Of a stretch of DNA of 8,459 nucleotides, positions 93-7,106 are shown piece by piece (within the stretch, counting starts at the first letter, position 1; the number at the start of each line of letters is the position of its first letter). The notes beneath the pieces were generated by a model that did not search any database, had not been told where the DNA came from, and saw only the letters and a program-made list of their open reading frames with translations. The stretch spans positions 1 through 8,459 of the forward strand of contig DAOVMD010000113.1 in assembly GCA_030630935.1 (NCBI GenBank). The letters are read 5' to 3'. This DNA comes from Candidatus Mcinerneyibacteriota bacterium. Its GTDB lineage: Bacteria > AUK180 > JAQVHJ01. The translations under genes and the position numbers were made by a program.

Positions 93-133
93 CCGGTAAC
101 TTTAATTGACACCAACCGGTAATTCTAATTGTC
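93..133. repeat. Two 18-base direct repeats, 23-base period, at IS terminus
   Basis: CCGGTAACTTTAATTGAC at 93-110 and CCGGTAATTCTAATTGTC at 116-133 match at 15 of 18 positions and start exactly 23 bp apart, about two helical turns. Regularly spaced related repeats inside the terminus are a hallmark of IS21-family ends, where they serve as transposase binding sites. Binding here is inferred. Confidence 0.7.
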
Positions 134-1129
134 GCTAATCACCCTTCCCTGAAACTTCTTATCATCAGTGGCTTTTATAAGGCATTTGATAGTGCGTTTC
201 CCTCTTTTAACTAATTCATTAACTACAACATTGTTATTTTTCACATCTTTTGGATCGTCAATTAAAAGATAGACTAGTTTCTTAGTTTTTATTGAACCGA
301 GGTCAAGTCCCTCAAGCACAGGACCTTCTTTTTTTCCACTTGTTTTTATTTCGTGAGGATCTTCTTTATCTTTACTATAAACAAATTCGTAACTCAATAG
401 AAATTTTTCACCTATCTCCTCCTTGTTTATTACTTTTGCCCCTTTTATAGATTCAATTAGGGCGGTTTCCTCTTCTTCAGTGAAACTCGATTCAATTACA
501 TTAACCTTTGTCACTTCTTTATCTTCATCAAAATACACTCTCAGCATTATGAATTTATCTTTTTCTTTGGCATCTATCTCCGGCATTTCAAATTCTAAAA
601 TTCTATGTTCTTTGAATTCTGCATCTATACTGAAATCGAATTTTACATCTTCACTGTAATCAAACTTGATCTCATAGATCTTTATCTCAGTCTCTTGTTT
701 TACATCAAAATACAGTTTCTCTTTTAATGCCAATTCTGCTGGTAAAGAATAGACGAAATACTCATTCACTTTTTCCGGTTTGAATATCTCTTGTGCGATC
801 TTTATGGGTATATTCTGCTTTGTCTTGATAATGACCGCTGATGTAGTTATTAGTTCTCCCTTAACTCCAAGCATCAGTATTAATGCCTTAATAAGCGGGA
901 ACATACCTGACTCATCCACTGTGAATATCATCTCTCCAGAATAAAACAATCCTGTATCTTTAGAATAAGAAAGCTCACCTTTTACAAAGATTTTACTTTC
1001 AAGTCCCTCAACCTGGATTGAGGATTCTCCAGACGGTGAGAAACTTATTTTTAGTTCGGAGTACTGCTTTGCCTGAACAAAAAATAGTAATGCCAGAACA
1101 CAAATCACTACATACACACACTTTTTCAT
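125..1129 (-). CDS. Secreted protein of unknown function with TonB-C-like domain, probably 3'-truncated by IS
   Basis: The 334-residue product has a clear Sec signal peptide (MKKC, a hydrophobic run over residues 5-18, likely cleavage after VQA at 20) and is otherwise soluble, rich in charged beta-strand-like segments. Residues about 193-252 (IMLRVYFDEDKEVTKVNVIE, then an acidic helix and a closing strand FLLSYEFVYS) resemble the beta-alpha-beta pattern of the TonB C-terminal domain family; this is a weak resemblance by eye. I do not recognise the N-terminal 170 residues. The ATG at 1129 is preferred over one 16 codons upstream because it has GGAGGTG six bases before it and begins the signal peptide. 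It is the last gene of a same-strand cluster, 67 bp after the HtrA-like protease gene. The last codons, VISDN and TAG, coincide with the proposed IS tip, so the native C-terminus is probably lost. Confidence 0.75.
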   Translation of the reverse strand: MKKCVYVVICVLALLFFVQAKQYSELKISFSPSGESSIQVEGLESKIFVKGELSYSKDTGLFYSGEMIFTVDESGMFPLIKALILMLGVKGELITTSAVIIKTKQNIPIKIAQEIFKPEKVNEYFVYSLPAELALKEKLYFDVKQETEIKIYEIKFDYSEDVKFDFSIDAEFKEHRILEFEMPEIDAKEKDKFIMLRVYFDEDKEVTKVNVIESSFTEEEETALIESIKGAKVINKEEIGEKFLLSYEFVYSKDKEDPHEIKTSGKKEGPVLEGLDLGSIKTKKLVYLLIDDPKDVKNNNVVVNELVKRGKRTIKCLIKATDDKKFQGRVISDN

Positions 1130-1134
1130 AGAAA

Positions 1135-1141
1135 CACCTCC
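1135..1141 (-). promoter_or_regulatory. Strong Shine-Dalgarno deciding the start at 1129
   Basis: The minus strand reads GGAGGTG, then five bases, then ATG. This places initiation at 1129 and argues against the in-frame upstream ATG at 1177, whose extra residues would mask the signal peptide. Confidence 0.8.
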
Positions 1142-1196
1142 AAATAAATTTTTTATAGATAATATGTCAATTAACAATAACCACTAATTATTATAT

Positions 1197-2537
1197 TTAC
1201 AAGATAAAAGGTAGGTTATAATCTGTAACAAACATGACAATATCTTCAGGTTTATTTCCCCATATAATAACAATTCCAAATTGCTCAGTTAAAAATGAAT
1301 ACTTGATAGCTTTTTGAAGGTCATTGGAGTTATTAATATTGACTGCAATCATTACATCCATAAATTGTCCCGGGACCACACCTTTAATTTTTCCCTTTGG
1401 CAGAGTAACTTTCGCAGAGCCTGAGCCTTTCGCAACATTAATTATTCTAAGTTGTTTATCAAATTCTAAACCTAATAAGTGGAAGAACCAAAATCTCCAA
1501 GGTATTTCCTCCGGTTGAAATTTTAATTCTTCAGTTTGAATTTTAATTATTTTTTCCTTATTCTTTCGTAATATTTTAAACTCCAATTCTGTCCCAATTT
1601 TTTTATTGAAAATATAATCCTGTAATTCAGTAATTTTAAAGAATGTTAAGCCATTTACTGTAAGGATCAAATCGTTCTTTTGTAAGTTGAATTTTTTCCC
1701 TGGAGTATCAGGAAATACCCATTCGACCAGAAAGCCATTTTTTAATTCACCTTCATAGTCTATATAGTTTCTGTTCTTTTCATTATTTATCAGTATTGAA
1801 CATCCGACCCATGAACGTTTAAATGAATTGGATTCTAAATAATTCTTATATAATTTCCTTACCATATATATAGGAATTGCAAGGTTAAAGTCGTATACTT
1901 TTCGGTGTTTATAATCAGATGATTTCTTTATAGTTGGAATTCCAATTAATTTCCCGTCCTTATCTACCAATGCCCCACCGCTGTTTCCGGAAAATATTTT
2001 TGCAGAGAATCTGAAATTTCGCTCGATTAAAGTCAGGTGAGTAATTATTAAATCTTTGGATGAGATAATTCCTTTCGTAACCGAGATTCCTTCCCCATGA
2101 GAATTACCGATTGCCCAACAATCATCACCCATTGCAAAGCTATTATGATTTCCCAAGATAATAGGTTTTAAATTATACACCTCGATTTTTATTAGAGCAA
2201 GGTCAGCGAATTTATCTTCAATAAGAATCTCAGCATTATATTTTTTCTTATCACTTGTAATCACGGTTATTTCAGAAGCATCGGAAATAACATGGGCATT
2301 TGTGACAATAATCCCGTCGCTTGATAGAATGACTCCGGAACCCATCGAATCAATCGGCTCTTCTTTTTGTAAACCTGTTTCGTCAATAAAAAAGAAGTTC
2401 GGGGTAGATTTCACTTTAATTATAACTGTTGACTTAATTGATTCTTTAATTTTGCCTGTATCATAATCTTCAGCATAACATGGGAGCATGAACAATAGTG
2501 AGAGAAGAATCAGGGATATGATTGAGTTTCTTTTCAT
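1197..2537 (-). CDS. HtrA/DegP-like exported serine protease with PDZ domains (paralogue of 5340-3994)
   Basis: The 446-residue product has a Sec signal peptide (likely cleavage after CYA at 22), so it probably acts in the periplasm. Residues 35-230 form a trypsin-like S1C protease domain with an intact triad: His82 in IVTNAHV, Asp112 in FADLALIKI and Ser186 in GNSGGAL. A PDZ domain covers about 267-335 (FLVEWVFPDTPG, NDLILTVNG). A divergent second PDZ-like segment at about 352-446 includes DVMIAVNINNSNDLQKAI and ends in LPFIL. HtrA proteins degrade or refold misfolded envelope proteins; the actual substrate here is unknown. The length fits the DegP/DegQ range. The gene starts 21 bp after the pseudoprotease gene, with an AAGGAAA ribosome site upstream of the ATG at 2537. 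Its closest visible relative is the first gene of the cluster, with similar motifs throughout. Confidence 0.88.
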   Translation of the reverse strand: MKRNSIISLILLSLLFMLPCYAEDYDTGKIKESIKSTVIIKVKSTPNFFFIDETGLQKEEPIDSMGSGVILSSDGIIVTNAHVISDASEITVITSDKKKYNAEILIEDKFADLALIKIEVYNLKPIILGNHNSFAMGDDCWAIGNSHGEGISVTKGIISSKDLIITHLTLIERNFRFSAKIFSGNSGGALVDKDGKLIGIPTIKKSSDYKHRKVYDFNLAIPIYMVRKLYKNYLESNSFKRSWVGCSILINNEKNRNYIDYEGELKNGFLVEWVFPDTPGKKFNLQKNDLILTVNGLTFFKITELQDYIFNKKIGTELEFKILRKNKEKIIKIQTEELKFQPEEIPWRFWFFHLLGLEFDKQLRIINVAKGSGSAKVTLPKGKIKGVVPGQFMDVMIAVNINNSNDLQKAIKYSFLTEQFGIVIIWGNKPEDIVMFVTDYNLPFIL

Positions 2538-2558
2538 TTTATTCTTTCCTTTAAAAAG

Positions 2559-3959
2559 TTAAATTACAGGGAAATAATCTTGAATTATGGTGATGAATGT
2601 GAATCCCTGATCTAAAAAATTTCCATTTGCGATATATAAAATTAAGATATCATCAAATAAAGAATTTGTAATATAATCATCTAACATTTTACAGTTAGTA
2701 ATTTTTTTTGTACGTAACCGGTTATCCAATTTAATTTCCTTAGCGTCAAGTTTCTGAACGGGAAATTCATCTTTTGGGAGATAATATTTAATATATTTCT
2801 CTGCTTTTAGAAAAGTTCCATCTGCATAAGAATCCTTTCTAATTTTTTCTATATACGGTTTTCCGTTTTTGCATATCACTTTCAACCCGAAATAAAGATG
2901 TAATTCGTCCAATGGAGATAACCTCAGAGTATATGGTTTATCAACAGTCTTTATTTTTAATTCCTCTTCTTTTGAATTTCTCGAGATCTTTAAACTTACT
3001 TCACTTTGGGAGGGGAGGCTCATCACATATTTAATATACTCAATAACATCAGTGTGAGAATTATTATCTACTGAGATTATGACATCACCTTTTTGCACTC
3101 CTGCTTCAGCTGCAGGGGTACCTGGAAATACCGCTGCAACATATATCTTTTCTGAGTCAATATCAATATTAAATTCCTTCTCACTAAATGAATCGGCTTT
3201 GGTGATGTATATGCCCATCCAGCTATGAATAATCTTCTCTCCGCGTTTTAATTTTTCAATGATTGGTTTTATATTATTAATAGGTTCAATTATCCCGAAA
3301 TTTTGAACATTACCTCTACAGATTCCGATCACTTCGTTCTTAGAATTAAATACCGGGGCAGTTGAAACGCCTGGATTAATACTCATATCACTCTTGATAT
3401 AATTGGGGAATTCAATATTTACCAGGTCAGAATAATTTGTTGAGCTTATAATTCCCGATGAAAGGATTTTACTAGCACCTCTTTGGAATCCATAAGACCA
3501 AATCTCATCGAGATGTTCTACCTTATCCGAATCCCCAAACGTTACCCATTTCCGGTCGTAACTTTCAAGTTTAACAAGAGCAATGTTTTGGGGAGGATAT
3601 GAACCAACAATTTTAATTGGATATTTCTTCCTATCATAAAATACGGCTTCTAATTTATCAAAATATCTCAGAGGTTCAAATGGAATGATAGCATATCCTG
3701 ATGAATCGAAAACAAAACCTGTTACCTCACGCTCTTCAAATTTTTTCTCTTCCAATACAGGAACCATATTATACCCGGAATACCCAACTACCACTTTTGA
3801 TTTTGTCGGAACAAGGTATGTTGCTTCAGTTAAATATTTCGTTTTGAAAACTGAATTATATGCAGTCTTAATATCCCGCTTTGCATTTACAAAGGAACTA
3901 TAAGAAAAAAGAATCAGGACGATCATTATCCCAATCAACGGTTTTTTAAATTTAATCAT
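2559..3959 (-). CDS. HtrA-like exported protein, catalytically degenerate (predicted pseudoprotease) with PDZ domains
   Basis: The 466-residue product has a signal peptide (cleavage likely after VNA at 26). The trypsin-like fold is recognisable from residue 50 to 240: GFVFDSSGYAIIPFE, NIALVKL, ILSSGIISS, INPGVSTAPVF, EVIGI and IEPINNIKPII match the order of HtrA motifs. The catalytic His position is Glu95 and the Asp position is Asn125. Ser199 is kept, but the usual GNSGGP is GVSTAP, so peptidase activity is unlikely. PDZ1 is canonical at about 271-340 (IYVAAVFPGTPAAEAGVQKG). A divergent C-terminal PDZ-like segment ends in YFPVI, echoing LPFIL and LPFLL of the neighbours. It lies between two intact proteases with gaps of 34 and 21 bp, which suggests a structural or regulatory partner role; this is inference. 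The ATG at 3959 is preferred over the GTG at 3971, because that GTG overlaps the Shine-Dalgarno. Confidence 0.82.
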   Translation of the reverse strand: MIKFKKPLIGIMIVLILFSYSSFVNAKRDIKTAYNSVFKTKYLTEATYLVPTKSKVVVGYSGYNMVPVLEEKKFEEREVTGFVFDSSGYAIIPFEPLRYFDKLEAVFYDRKKYPIKIVGSYPPQNIALVKLESYDRKWVTFGDSDKVEHLDEIWSYGFQRGASKILSSGIISSTNYSDLVNIEFPNYIKSDMSINPGVSTAPVFNSKNEVIGICRGNVQNFGIIEPINNIKPIIEKLKRGEKIIHSWMGIYITKADSFSEKEFNIDIDSEKIYVAAVFPGTPAAEAGVQKGDVIISVDNNSHTDVIEYIKYVMSLPSQSEVSLKISRNSKEEELKIKTVDKPYTLRLSPLDELHLYFGLKVICKNGKPYIEKIRKDSYADGTFLKAEKYIKYYLPKDEFPVQKLDAKEIKLDNRLRTKKITNCKMLDDYITNSLFDDILILYIANGNFLDQGFTFITIIQDYFPVI

Positions 3960-3963
3960 CTTA

Positions 3964-3969
3964 CCCTCC
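3964..3969 (-). promoter_or_regulatory. Shine-Dalgarno GGAGGG deciding the start at 3959
   Basis: The minus strand reads GTGGAGGGTAAGATG. GGAGGG lies four bases before the ATG at 3959. A longer frame opening at the GTG (3971) would begin on top of this site and so is not the likely start. Confidence 0.75.
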
Positions 3970-3993
3970 ACTTTTAAGGTTTAATTATTAATT

Positions 3994-5340
3994 CTAAAGT
4001 AAAAATGGTAATTTATCATCTACAATAAATAAGATAGAGTCTTTCGGTCCCTTTCCCCAGACCATAACCAGCGAAAACTGATGTTCAAGATGAGATCTTT
4101 TTATTACAGAGTTCAGGTCATTGAAATCCCTGACCTTAATTTCATAACCTTTATCAAAGGTTTGACCTGGAATAACTGCTTTCAACTTATTTTTCGGGAT
4201 CTCCATTTTTTCTACCTTAGACCCCTTGCGGATTGAAATTATCCGTAATGACTTGTCGATATCCATTCCGAGGAAATGAAATAAACAGAAGTCTGGTGGG
4301 AATCTTTCCGGCGGCATGATTAACCTGGTAGTTTTAATTGCTACATTATTAACTTTATTATTTCGCAGGTATTTCACATTTATTTCTGTTCCCGGATCGA
4401 GACTATAAATATAATCTTGAATTGCAGTTAATTTCTGAAATTTCACATCATTAATTTCAAGAATTACATCATTCCTTTTTAAACCTCTTTGCTTTGCCGG
4501 TGTGTTTGGGAAAACCCATTCAATTAAATACCCCTTGTCAGATCCTTTGAAATTTAAATAGTCTCTGTTTTTCTGGTTATTTTGCATTACTGCAATTCCT
4601 ATCCAGGAACGATAAAATGTTTTAGTTCTTTTATAAGTTCTAAAAAGAGCTTTGATCATGTACGCAGGAATTGCAAGGTTGAAGTCGTACATTTTCTGCT
4701 CTTTATAATCGTATGATTTCTTTATAGTTGGAATCCCAATTAATTCTCCATTTTTATTAATGAGTGCACCACCACTATTCCCATGATTAATCTTAGCATT
4801 AAACCTGAGAAACCGTTCAATCATTAAATAATGTAAAATATTTTGGTTTAAAGAAGTGATCATACCTTTTGAAATATTAAATCCTAAACCAAGGGTATTT
4901 CCTACTGCCCAGCAATCATCGCCTTCTTCTAATTTGTTAATATCACCAATCTCCATATACTCCAGGTTATCAGCATCAATCCTAATTAGAGCGAGGTCAG
5001 TATAAGGATCTAGAACAAGGACCTTAGCGGTATATTTCTTTTTGTTATATGTCAATACAGTGATCTTATCTCCACCTTCAACAACATGATTGTTTGTGAC
5101 AATGATTCCATCTGATGAAAGAATAACTCCTGATCCTTCCCATCTCTCAGATTTAACACGTAGAAATCCTGCCTTTTTATGAACATATAAAGATTCGGTT
5201 TCTCCTTTTACCTTGATAATAACTACTTTATTCAGAGACTTTTTAATTAACTCCTTATCATATTCATCTTCAGAATAAATATTTGAAAAGGTAACTAATA
5301 AAATAATCATTAAGCACATAAATCTTTTTAATATTTTCAT
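3994..5340 (-). CDS. HtrA/DegP-like exported serine protease with PDZ domains, first gene of cluster
   Basis: The 448-residue product has a signal peptide (hydrophobic core at residues 8-20, likely cleavage near IYS at 23). The S1C trypsin-like domain (about 35-232) has a complete triad: His85 in IVTNNHVV, Asp115 in PYTDLALIRI and Ser189 in GNSGGAL; KGMITSLNQ and DFNLAIPAYMI are further landmarks. PDZ1 runs about 269-336 (YLIEWVFPNTPAKQRGLKRN, DVILEIND). A divergent PDZ-like tail at about 353-448 contains KVRDFNDLNSVIKRS and ends in LPFLL. The expected role is periplasmic protein quality control or processing; the substrate is unknown. It leads the minus-strand cluster, with the pseudoprotease gene starting 34 bp after its stop. 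A GGGAG ribosome site lies at about 5352-5348 and a sigma-70-like promoter candidate lies upstream. Confidence 0.88.
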   Translation of the reverse strand: MKILKRFMCLMIILLVTFSNIYSEDEYDKELIKKSLNKVVIIKVKGETESLYVHKKAGFLRVKSERWEGSGVILSSDGIIVTNNHVVEGGDKITVLTYNKKKYTAKVLVLDPYTDLALIRIDADNLEYMEIGDINKLEEGDDCWAVGNTLGLGFNISKGMITSLNQNILHYLMIERFLRFNAKINHGNSGGALINKNGELIGIPTIKKSYDYKEQKMYDFNLAIPAYMIKALFRTYKRTKTFYRSWIGIAVMQNNQKNRDYLNFKGSDKGYLIEWVFPNTPAKQRGLKRNDVILEINDVKFQKLTAIQDYIYSLDPGTEINVKYLRNNKVNNVAIKTTRLIMPPERFPPDFCLFHFLGMDIDKSLRIISIRKGSKVEKMEIPKNKLKAVIPGQTFDKGYEIKVRDFNDLNSVIKRSHLEHQFSLVMVWGKGPKDSILFIVDDKLPFLL

Positions 5341-5398: not shown

Positions 5399-5427
5399 TT
5401 GAAAAGTACTGCTAAATATGATAAAAT
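5399..5427 (+). promoter_or_regulatory. Candidate promoter for the adenylate cyclase gene
   Basis: TTGAAA (5399-5404) and TAAAAT (5422-5427), each 5 of 6 to consensus, are 17 bases apart. The predicted start near 5434 would leave only about 11 bases before the ATG at 5445, almost inside the ribosome site, so the true promoter may be elsewhere in the gap. No TGTGA-N6-TCACA-like CRP site is seen in 5341-5444. Confidence 0.3.
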
Positions 5428-5434
5428 ATAGAAA

Positions 5435-5439
5435 AAGGA
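5435..5439 (+). promoter_or_regulatory. Ribosome binding site AAGGA deciding the start at 5445
   Basis: AAGGA lies five bases before the ATG at 5445. The in-frame ATG at 5418 has no purine-rich site at the right distance, and its extra residues (MIKYRKRIL) lie outside the FHA fold. Confidence 0.65.
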
Positions 5440-5444
5440 TTTTA

Positions 5445-7106
5445 ATGGCCACATTAATTTATTATGAACTTAATGATAATCCGATAAAATTTAAGATCAA
5501 GAACGAGATTACCAAGATAGGCCGCAAGGAAGATAATGATATTATCCTAACTGATATTTTTGTTTCACGATATCACGTTGCTATTATAAATAAGGAAGGG
5601 CGATTTACATTAATTGACAAGGGAAGTTCTTACGGCACACTTCTAAACGGGAAAAAGATGTCCAGGGAAGAACTTAAGTATGGTGATGAGATTAAAATTG
5701 GGAATATCCTTATGACGTTTGTCGATGATTCTACAATAGATTCCGTTTTCACAAAAGACACCAAACGTACCCAAGGTGAGATGATAAAAGATATTACTCT
5801 TCTTCAGAATGAGCTGGATGATATTAAGATGAAGATTCGAGATAGAGATAAAGTAAAACTTGATATTAACCTGCTCGGTGAACGATTAATTAGTGTTCAA
5901 AATGAGCTTGTAAAGATGCAAGAATCTTTTCTTCAAGCTAAGAAATCGAATCAAGTTCTCAGGATTATGTATGATGTTGGAAAAGTTGTTAACTCAGTTA
6001 CTGACCTAAGAATGTTGATGAATGTTGTAATGGATTTAGCTTTAAAAGTTGTAAGTGCCGAGCGTGGTTATTTAATGCTTTATGAAAAGGAAGCGAACTC
6101 TCTTATTACAAAGGTTGCAAGGAATATGGGGAAGAATGTTACAGATCTTAATAATCTTGAAATATCGCAGACAATTGCTAAGGAGGTTTACAAATCAAGC
6201 AAGCCAATTCTTACAATTGATGCTCAGAATGATGATAGGTTTTCAACCTCAACAAGTATTGTAATGTATAATATCAGATCTGTTATCTGTGTACCTTTGC
6301 GTAATAAGAAAGAAGAAGCGATTGGAATTATTTATGTTGATAATATTGCATCAAAATCATCTTTTACAGAAGATGATAAAGAATTACTGGCGACATTTGC
6401 AAATTATGTTGCAGTTGCAATTGAGAATGCTTCCTTGTTCGAGAAGATCCGTAAGGAAGAAAAGATTAAGAACAAATTATCTCGTTACCTTTCAACAAAT
6501 GTTGTTGACTCGATAATTCAAGGACAGGAGATTCAGCTGGGTGGAGAGATAAAAATGATTACAACATTATTTTCTGATATCCGGGGATTTACAACAATGT
6601 CTGAAAAAATGGAACCGGAAGAAGTTGTTGCTTTATTAAATGAATATTTTTCTATTATGACAGATATAATATTTAAGTATGAAGGTACGCTCGATAAATT
6701 TATCGGGGATTGTATTATGGCGGTATTTGGAGCACCTTTTAGGCATGAGGATGATCCAATGAGAGCAATTAAAACTTCAATTGAGATGCGGGATGCAACG
6801 ATTAAATTAAATGCAAAATGGAAAAAGATGGGCAGAAGAAGTATTGGGGTCGGGATAGGAATCAATACAGGTGAAGCGATTGCAGGGAATATCGGTTCAT
6901 TACAAAGAATGGATTATACCGTTATTTCAGATGCTGTTAATCTTGCAGAACGTTTAGAAGCAAATGCTCCTGCAGAAAAGATTTATATTTCAATCTCAAC
7001 ATATGAAATTGTAAAAGATTATATCAAAGCTGTGGAACTTAAACCGTTTAAGGTAAAAGGTAAATCTAAGGCTCAACAAGTTTTTGAAGTATTAAGTTTA
7101 AAGTAA
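5445..7106 (+). CDS. FHA-GAF-class III adenylate cyclase
   Basis: The 553-residue protein has no signal peptide or membrane segment and should be cytoplasmic. Domains in order: an FHA phosphothreonine-binding domain (about 5-95; GR at 26-27, SRYH at 41-44, NG at 68-69); a coiled-coil linker (about 112-168); a GAF domain (about 175-332, with CVPLRNKKEEAIGIIYVDN); a short helical linker; and a class III nucleotide cyclase domain (about 368-553). Both metal-binding aspartates are present (D378 in FSDIRGFT, D422 in FIGDCIMAVFG). K418 and T492 match the adenine-selecting pair of class IIIb cyclases, and N499 and R503 in VNLAERLE supply the transition-state residues. ATP to cAMP is therefore the expected reaction, controlled by a phosphoprotein bound to FHA and a ligand bound to GAF. 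No kinase gene is visible. It is divergent from the HtrA cluster across 104 bp and convergent with the PorV-like gene. Confidence 0.93.
   Translation: MATLIYYELNDNPIKFKIKNEITKIGRKEDNDIILTDIFVSRYHVAIINKEGRFTLIDKGSSYGTLLNGKKMSREELKYGDEIKIGNILMTFVDDSTIDSVFTKDTKRTQGEMIKDITLLQNELDDIKMKIRDRDKVKLDINLLGERLISVQNELVKMQESFLQAKKSNQVLRIMYDVGKVVNSVTDLRMLMNVVMDLALKVVSAERGYLMLYEKEANSLITKVARNMGKNVTDLNNLEISQTIAKEVYKSSKPILTIDAQNDDRFSTSTSIVMYNIRSVICVPLRNKKEEAIGIIYVDNIASKSSFTEDDKELLATFANYVAVAIENASLFEKIRKEEKIKNKLSRYLSTNVVDSIIQGQEIQLGGEIKMITTLFSDIRGFTTMSEKMEPEEVVALLNEYFSIMTDIIFKYEGTLDKFIGDCIMAVFGAPFRHEDDPMRAIKTSIEMRDATIKLNAKWKKMGRRSIGVGIGINTGEAIAGNIGSLQRMDYTVISDAVNLAERLEANAPAEKIYISISTYEIVKDYIKAVELKPFKVKGKSKAQQVFEVLSLK

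Follow-up and report, generated by a model that had tools for sequence, protein, structure and literature searches.

Here we describe an active HtrA-like serine protease, A, followed on the same strand by an HtrA-like protein, D, whose catalytic residues have been replaced, and we report that the two genes keep the same order in two bacterial genera of one family. Judged from its sequence, D is catalytically dead in both genera, yet it has been kept as a pseudoprotease and is not decaying. We put at roughly one in two the probability that D serves A as a non-catalytic HtrA partner, either by presenting substrate to it or by activating it in trans. The theme of a dead HtrA beside an active one is already known from magnetic bacteria and is found here again in an unrelated gene cluster.

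The window, by which we mean the whole stretch of DNA analysed, is an entire contig of 8,459 bases from a MAG of 3.16 Mb that is 80% complete. Its minus strand carries A, D and a second active protease, B, as tandem open reading frames separated by 21-22 bp as called (Table 1), and the Trypsin_2 and PDZ matches of all three bear out the three tandem same-strand HtrA-like genes of the preliminary description. Upstream lie a divergent gene for an FHA-GAF-cyclase protein and a PorV/TodX-like gene. The likely ATG start of D is preceded by a GGAGGG Shine-Dalgarno sequence that overlaps the called GTG. The fourth HtrA of this genome is a generic DegP on another contig (C111), and since the relative described below has it too, the HtrA cluster is additional to a housekeeping DegP.

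Table 1. Positions of features in the window and loci of the second operon.
Feature	Position	Strand	Remarks
Gene A, active HtrA-like serine protease, 448 aa	3994..5340	-	signal peptide, trypsin, PDZ and C-terminal PDZ-like domain; from sequence, Pfam and model
A His85 codon, catalytic	5086..5088	-	alignment
A Asp115 codon, catalytic	4996..4998	-	alignment
A Ser189 codon, catalytic	4774..4776	-	alignment
Gene D, predicted HtrA pseudoprotease	2559..3971	-	470 aa from the called GTG; 466 aa from the likelier ATG at 3959
D Glu99, catalytic His position	3675..3677	-	Glu in the relative too
D Asn129, catalytic Asp position	3585..3587	-	Asp in the relative
D Ser203, catalytic Ser position	3363..3365	-	within GVSTA, not GNSGG; Glu in the relative
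D PDZ domain, residues 252-341	2949..3218	-	intact; PDZ_2 51 bits
Gene B, second active HtrA-like protease, 446 aa	1197..2537	-	48% identical to A; absent from the relative
Gene X, secreted-looking, family not recognised	125..1177	-	likely ATG at 1129
FHA-GAF-adenylate/guanylate cyclase gene	5418..7106	+	divergent to A; also adjoins A in the relative
Second operon	L103 (G022), L100 (G145), L101 (G146), L102 (G147)		
Second operon, further loci	L112 (G150), L113 (G149), L114 (G151), L115 (G152)		
Operon of G259	L120 (G259:C42) 4717-8568		R/G/D, H/D/S, G/D/Y, same order

We regard A and B as HtrA relatives outside the curated DegP/DegQ subfamily. They score 99 and 96 bits against Trypsin_2 (Pfam cut-off 27.6), with the triad and the GNSGG motif in place, and 58 and 41.6 bits against PDZ_2 (cut-off 27), which gives each at least one C-terminal PDZ domain; against the NCBIfam Do family (TIGR02037) they reach 238.6 and 212.2 bits, both below its cut-off of 416.2. 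Alignment confirmed the intact triads first reported for the outer genes, H85/D115/S189 in A and H82/D112/S186 in B. The AlphaFold model of A, built from a five-row alignment, is of fair quality (pLDDT 76.6); Foldseek and VIA-align place it in the DegP/DegS/AlgW/MucD fold, and VIA-align aligned it with DegP and DegQ up to residue 439, covering the second PDZ domain.

D keeps the fold and the PDZ domain that a partner role needs, without what cutting needs. It scores 55.5 bits against Trypsin_2 and 51.2 bits against PDZ, both above the curated Pfam cut-offs, and it falls below the cut-off of the NCBIfam Do family. In the alignment its triad positions are E99/N129/S203 counted from the called GTG, or E95/N125/S199 from the ATG, and GVSTA stands in place of the lost oxyanion motif GNSGG; the Glu95 and Asn125 noted earlier for the middle gene are correct and are counted from the ATG. 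With E/N/S in the window and E/D/E in the relative, D lacks the His/Asp/Ser triad, and we class it as a pseudoprotease of HtrA descent, without protease status. Nearly all HtrA-like proteins on the fetched loci are H/D/S, the second (dead-active-dead) cluster excepted, so the state of D is exceptional and a triad of its type is no chance event.

The single-protein structure predictions proposed at the outset were run for A and D, and both gave an HtrA fold. The model of D, likewise from a five-row alignment, has a pLDDT of mostly ~70-93 in the protease-PDZ part and ~30-50 in the tail. It was placed in the same DegP/DegS/AlgW/MucD fold by Foldseek and VIA-align, and aligns in VIA-align to AlgW, MucD and DegS over residues ~24-348 with Z of 28-29, in match lists dominated by the protease-PDZ part and not the tail. 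Of the common layout claimed for the three proteins, the trypsin and PDZ domains stand for all three by Pfam, as do the signal peptides of A, D and B as judged by eye. The divergent PDZ-like tail stands for A, whose model spans the second PDZ of DegP, and lacks support for D, whose tail is poorly modelled. The sequence similarity between these tails was not significant, and shared ancestry was dropped as an explanation for them.

Between D and A the identity is only ~26%, and the alignment shows about nine residues missing from D after the Ser strand, where A has a loop, and an N-terminal insertion gained. In the tree D is a long branch, and no grouping of it with A or with B is supported. The idea that D is a recent copy of A is unsupported: beside the low identity, generic DegP outscores A in the profile comparison, though in the tree D may still belong beside A and B.

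Full-length proteins of the A and D types were found in just one other genome within homologue searches that covered 145 genomes with the A/B profile, 41 with D and 7 of the class. This relative, the MAG 'bacterium STE_202' (contig JAQVHJ010000016.1), belongs to the same family and another genus; its contig was the sole match of a contig scan with a two-row alignment, and the scan with a single sequence gave no match. The A-D pair is carried by these two genomes only, both incomplete MAGs. The relative carries A (61% identical) and then D (60%) in the order seen in the window, with A flanked by the same divergent FHA-GAF-cyclase and PorV-like neighbours; a convergent peroxiredoxin gene lies downstream of D, gene X is absent from the cluster, and B was not found anywhere in the assembly, which is 72% complete. 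Because B is missing beside A and D in the relative, the conserved unit is the active-dead pair and not the trio. The trio had been put forward as the functional unit, and a neighbourhood search proposed for it; once run, that search found the A-D pair kept in the relative and the trio absent. The FHA-GAF-cyclase protein is 81% identical between window and relative and divergent to A in both; it might sense or control the HtrA cluster.

The preliminary description had named decay of the middle gene in relatives as an observation that would count against it, and the D of the relative is intact. Its triad reads E/D/E, with His replaced by Glu as in the window, Asp kept and Ser replaced by Glu. 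The lesions differ (E/N/S against E/D/E), which argues that catalysis is dispensable and that the remaining protein is kept. The D reading frame runs to full length in both genera, uninterrupted by stops or frameshifts, at a protein divergence of ~40%, and blocks such as LDEIWSYGFQRGASKILSSGIISS are invariant. Between window and relative dN is 0.33 for D and 0.295 for A; synonymous sites are saturated, so the dN/dS ratio is not usable.

The partnership that we favour starts from what sequence and model give, namely the fold of D, the loss of triad and oxyanion motif in two genera, its intactness and its conserved adjacency to A; from there we infer that A and D are co-transcribed and touch each other, that D binds substrate, and which way the regulation runs. 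The conserved unit is a two-gene cassette encoding a secreted active A and then a secreted non-catalytic paralogue D; in the genome of the window a second active copy, B, which stems from a duplication, stands behind D. HtrA proteases are classically homo-oligomers. D would be the envelope partner of A, and would either enter a mixed HtrA assembly as its non-cutting protomer or form a homo-oligomer next to A; with its PDZ domain and empty active-site cleft it would bind exposed polypeptide ends, and it would then hold substrates or hand them to A. Alternatively, it would give a PDZ/sensor-loop signal that switches on a neighbouring A protomer. In HtrA oligomers the active state of loop LD is induced by loop L3 of the adjacent protomer (PMC4877387). 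Even a protomer that has lost its triad can therefore regulate an active neighbour, or recruit for it. In favour of a partnership, D is conserved between the genera (~60%) nearly as well as the active A, and gene order and divergent neighbours are shared. For the dead paralogue a role as regulator, adaptor or chaperone had been proposed, and it is the most natural reading of a protein that is dead in two genera, intact and beside an active protease; the trio in which that role was set is not supported.

The main rival is that D is a separate, homo-oligomeric protein, either a free-standing periplasmic chaperone or a ligand- or peptide-binding sensor, and that its operon with A serves co-regulation and nothing more. 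Chaperone activity without cleavage occurs among HtrA proteins, and the long branch of D without a supported grouping, its lost residues and its N-terminal insertion are in keeping with an independent function. The protease domain of MamO, moreover, has been repurposed to bind metal (PMC4794232). It also counts against a partnership that D, only ~26% identical to A and nearer by profile score to generic DegP than to A, need not have trimer interfaces that match those of A. Against the rival stands the strict adjacency of D to A, in the same order in both genomes, and we hold the separate chaperone or sensor to be a substantial possibility, though a minority one. We think it improbable that the whole trio makes up a single three-component protease in which A and B are distinct active subunits. 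In favour of it, the genes lie close together on the same strand, and in the tree B falls outside A and the relative's A (support 99/90), so that the split of A and B precedes that of the genera and B would come from an old duplication and have been lost in the relative; yet at this locus the relative lacks B beside its A and D, and the AU test does not reject a later duplication of A in the lineage of the window (p 0.42).

Two further readings concern D itself. Ser203 is present in the window's D and might suggest that it still cuts with an altered active site, but the relative has Glu at the Ser position, and both proteins have Glu for His and no GNSGG, so that residual cutting is very unlikely. 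The variation of the triad residues between the two orthologs could likewise be taken as the mark of a decaying relic; we rejected this on the intact reading frames in two genera and the dN near that of A, to which the invariant blocks can be added, and regard decay as largely refuted, with hardly any credence left to it.

The partnership of A and D can be set beside systems already described. The preliminary description knew of none with this arrangement, a claim that does not stand: magnetotactic bacteria encode active and dead HtrA proteins together in a single gene cluster, in the form of MamE with MamO and of the inactive MamE copies (PMC4794232), much as A and D are encoded. In magnetotactic bacteria the pairing arose repeatedly, inactive MamE copies having appeared three times, and MamO is a dead HtrA needed non-catalytically for MamE-dependent proteolysis in vivo (PMC4794232); its activation role needs the transporter domain, and no contact between MamE and MamO was found (PMC4794232), two points that tell against a partnership of A and D. 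MamO is distinguished by a TauE-like transporter domain and a di-histidine metal site, whereas D has a PDZ domain, an N-terminal signal peptide (by eye) and no TauE among its Pfam matches at E up to 1. D scores 25.3 bits against the NCBIfam MamO model, whose cut-off is 800, and on these two grounds we ruled out that D is a MamO. In the literature on further HtrA pseudoprotease systems, MamO was the sole bacterial case that we found. Plant Deg7 likewise joins an active HtrA protease domain to a degenerate one that mediates trimerisation (PMC3473262), and the two cooperate, but within one fused eukaryotic chain with four PDZ domains, whereas A and D are separate genes. AtDeg5 and AtDeg8 form hetero-oligomers (PMC4877387), a complex of two different HtrA-family proteins such as A and D might form; unlike A and D, they are described as two proteases, and AtDeg5 has no PDZ domain. 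DegP, DegQ, DegS, AlgW and MucD of the Do family share fold, PDZ domain and envelope location with A, B and D, but are homo-oligomers with intact triads, whereas A, B and D all fall below the Do cut-off.

A second operon makes a better case for paired active-dead HtrA machines than the window does; it was first met in G022 while tandem HtrA genes of the relatives' list were screened. There the order is dead1-active-dead2, and dead1, one or two active copies and dead2 follow one another in 8 of the 10 genomes examined of the phylum of G022, which is not that of the window, from three families. Active copies are always H/D/S, and dead copies are degenerate in every genome (dead1: F/D/T, I/D/T, F/K/Y, F/K/M, D/H/T; dead2: T/G/E, R/G/E, N/G/E, A/G/E, Y/D/Q, D/D/T). 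Among 289 genomes around G022 one more has the dead-active-dead order, G259, of a family outside that phylum's list. The D profile scores 118-152 bits with generic DegP, 17-36 with dead1 and 34-56 with dead2, so the A-D cassette and the dead-active-dead operon most likely arose separately, although the AU test is also compatible with a grouping of D and dead2 (p 0.43); D as an ortholog of dead1 or dead2 was set aside for want of special similarity by profile score.

Since D shows no special kinship to the dead proteins of the second operon, active-dead HtrA clusters seem to recur in unrelated lineages, and this recurrence is the point of interest. We suggest tentatively, as a possibility short of even odds, that operons of active and obligately dead HtrA proteins are recurrent, unrecognised envelope protease machines with at least two origins outside magnetosome clusters (A-D, and dead-active(1-2)-dead), in which dead subunits of a hetero-oligomer set activity or substrate choice. 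If dead paralogues are regular HtrA subunits or partners outside magnetotaxis, allosteric control by non-catalytic protomers would be a general device, and small secreted active-dead pairs would lend themselves to experiment much more readily than the membrane-bound MamE/MamO. A separate observation is that Ser has become Glu in two apparently unrelated dead HtrA lineages, in GNEGCP of dead2 (L103 6155-7426) and GVEAAP of the relative's D (L006 1498-2898).

Gene X, behind B, has no Pfam match over the cut-off and no NCBIfam match. It may be co-transcribed with the HtrA genes and is not conserved with them; we ruled it out as a functional partner because its homologues, in two genomes of the class, do not lie beside HtrA genes. 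At this end of the contig lies an insertion sequence at which the assembly broke off and which appears to truncate X at its 3' end: positions 1-140 are repeated terminally on at least four more contigs of the MAG, and on the minus strand a transposase-like start, MVTDKQVRRLFM, follows them. The homologue of X in G005, at 464 aa, extends beyond the point where the window's X ends.
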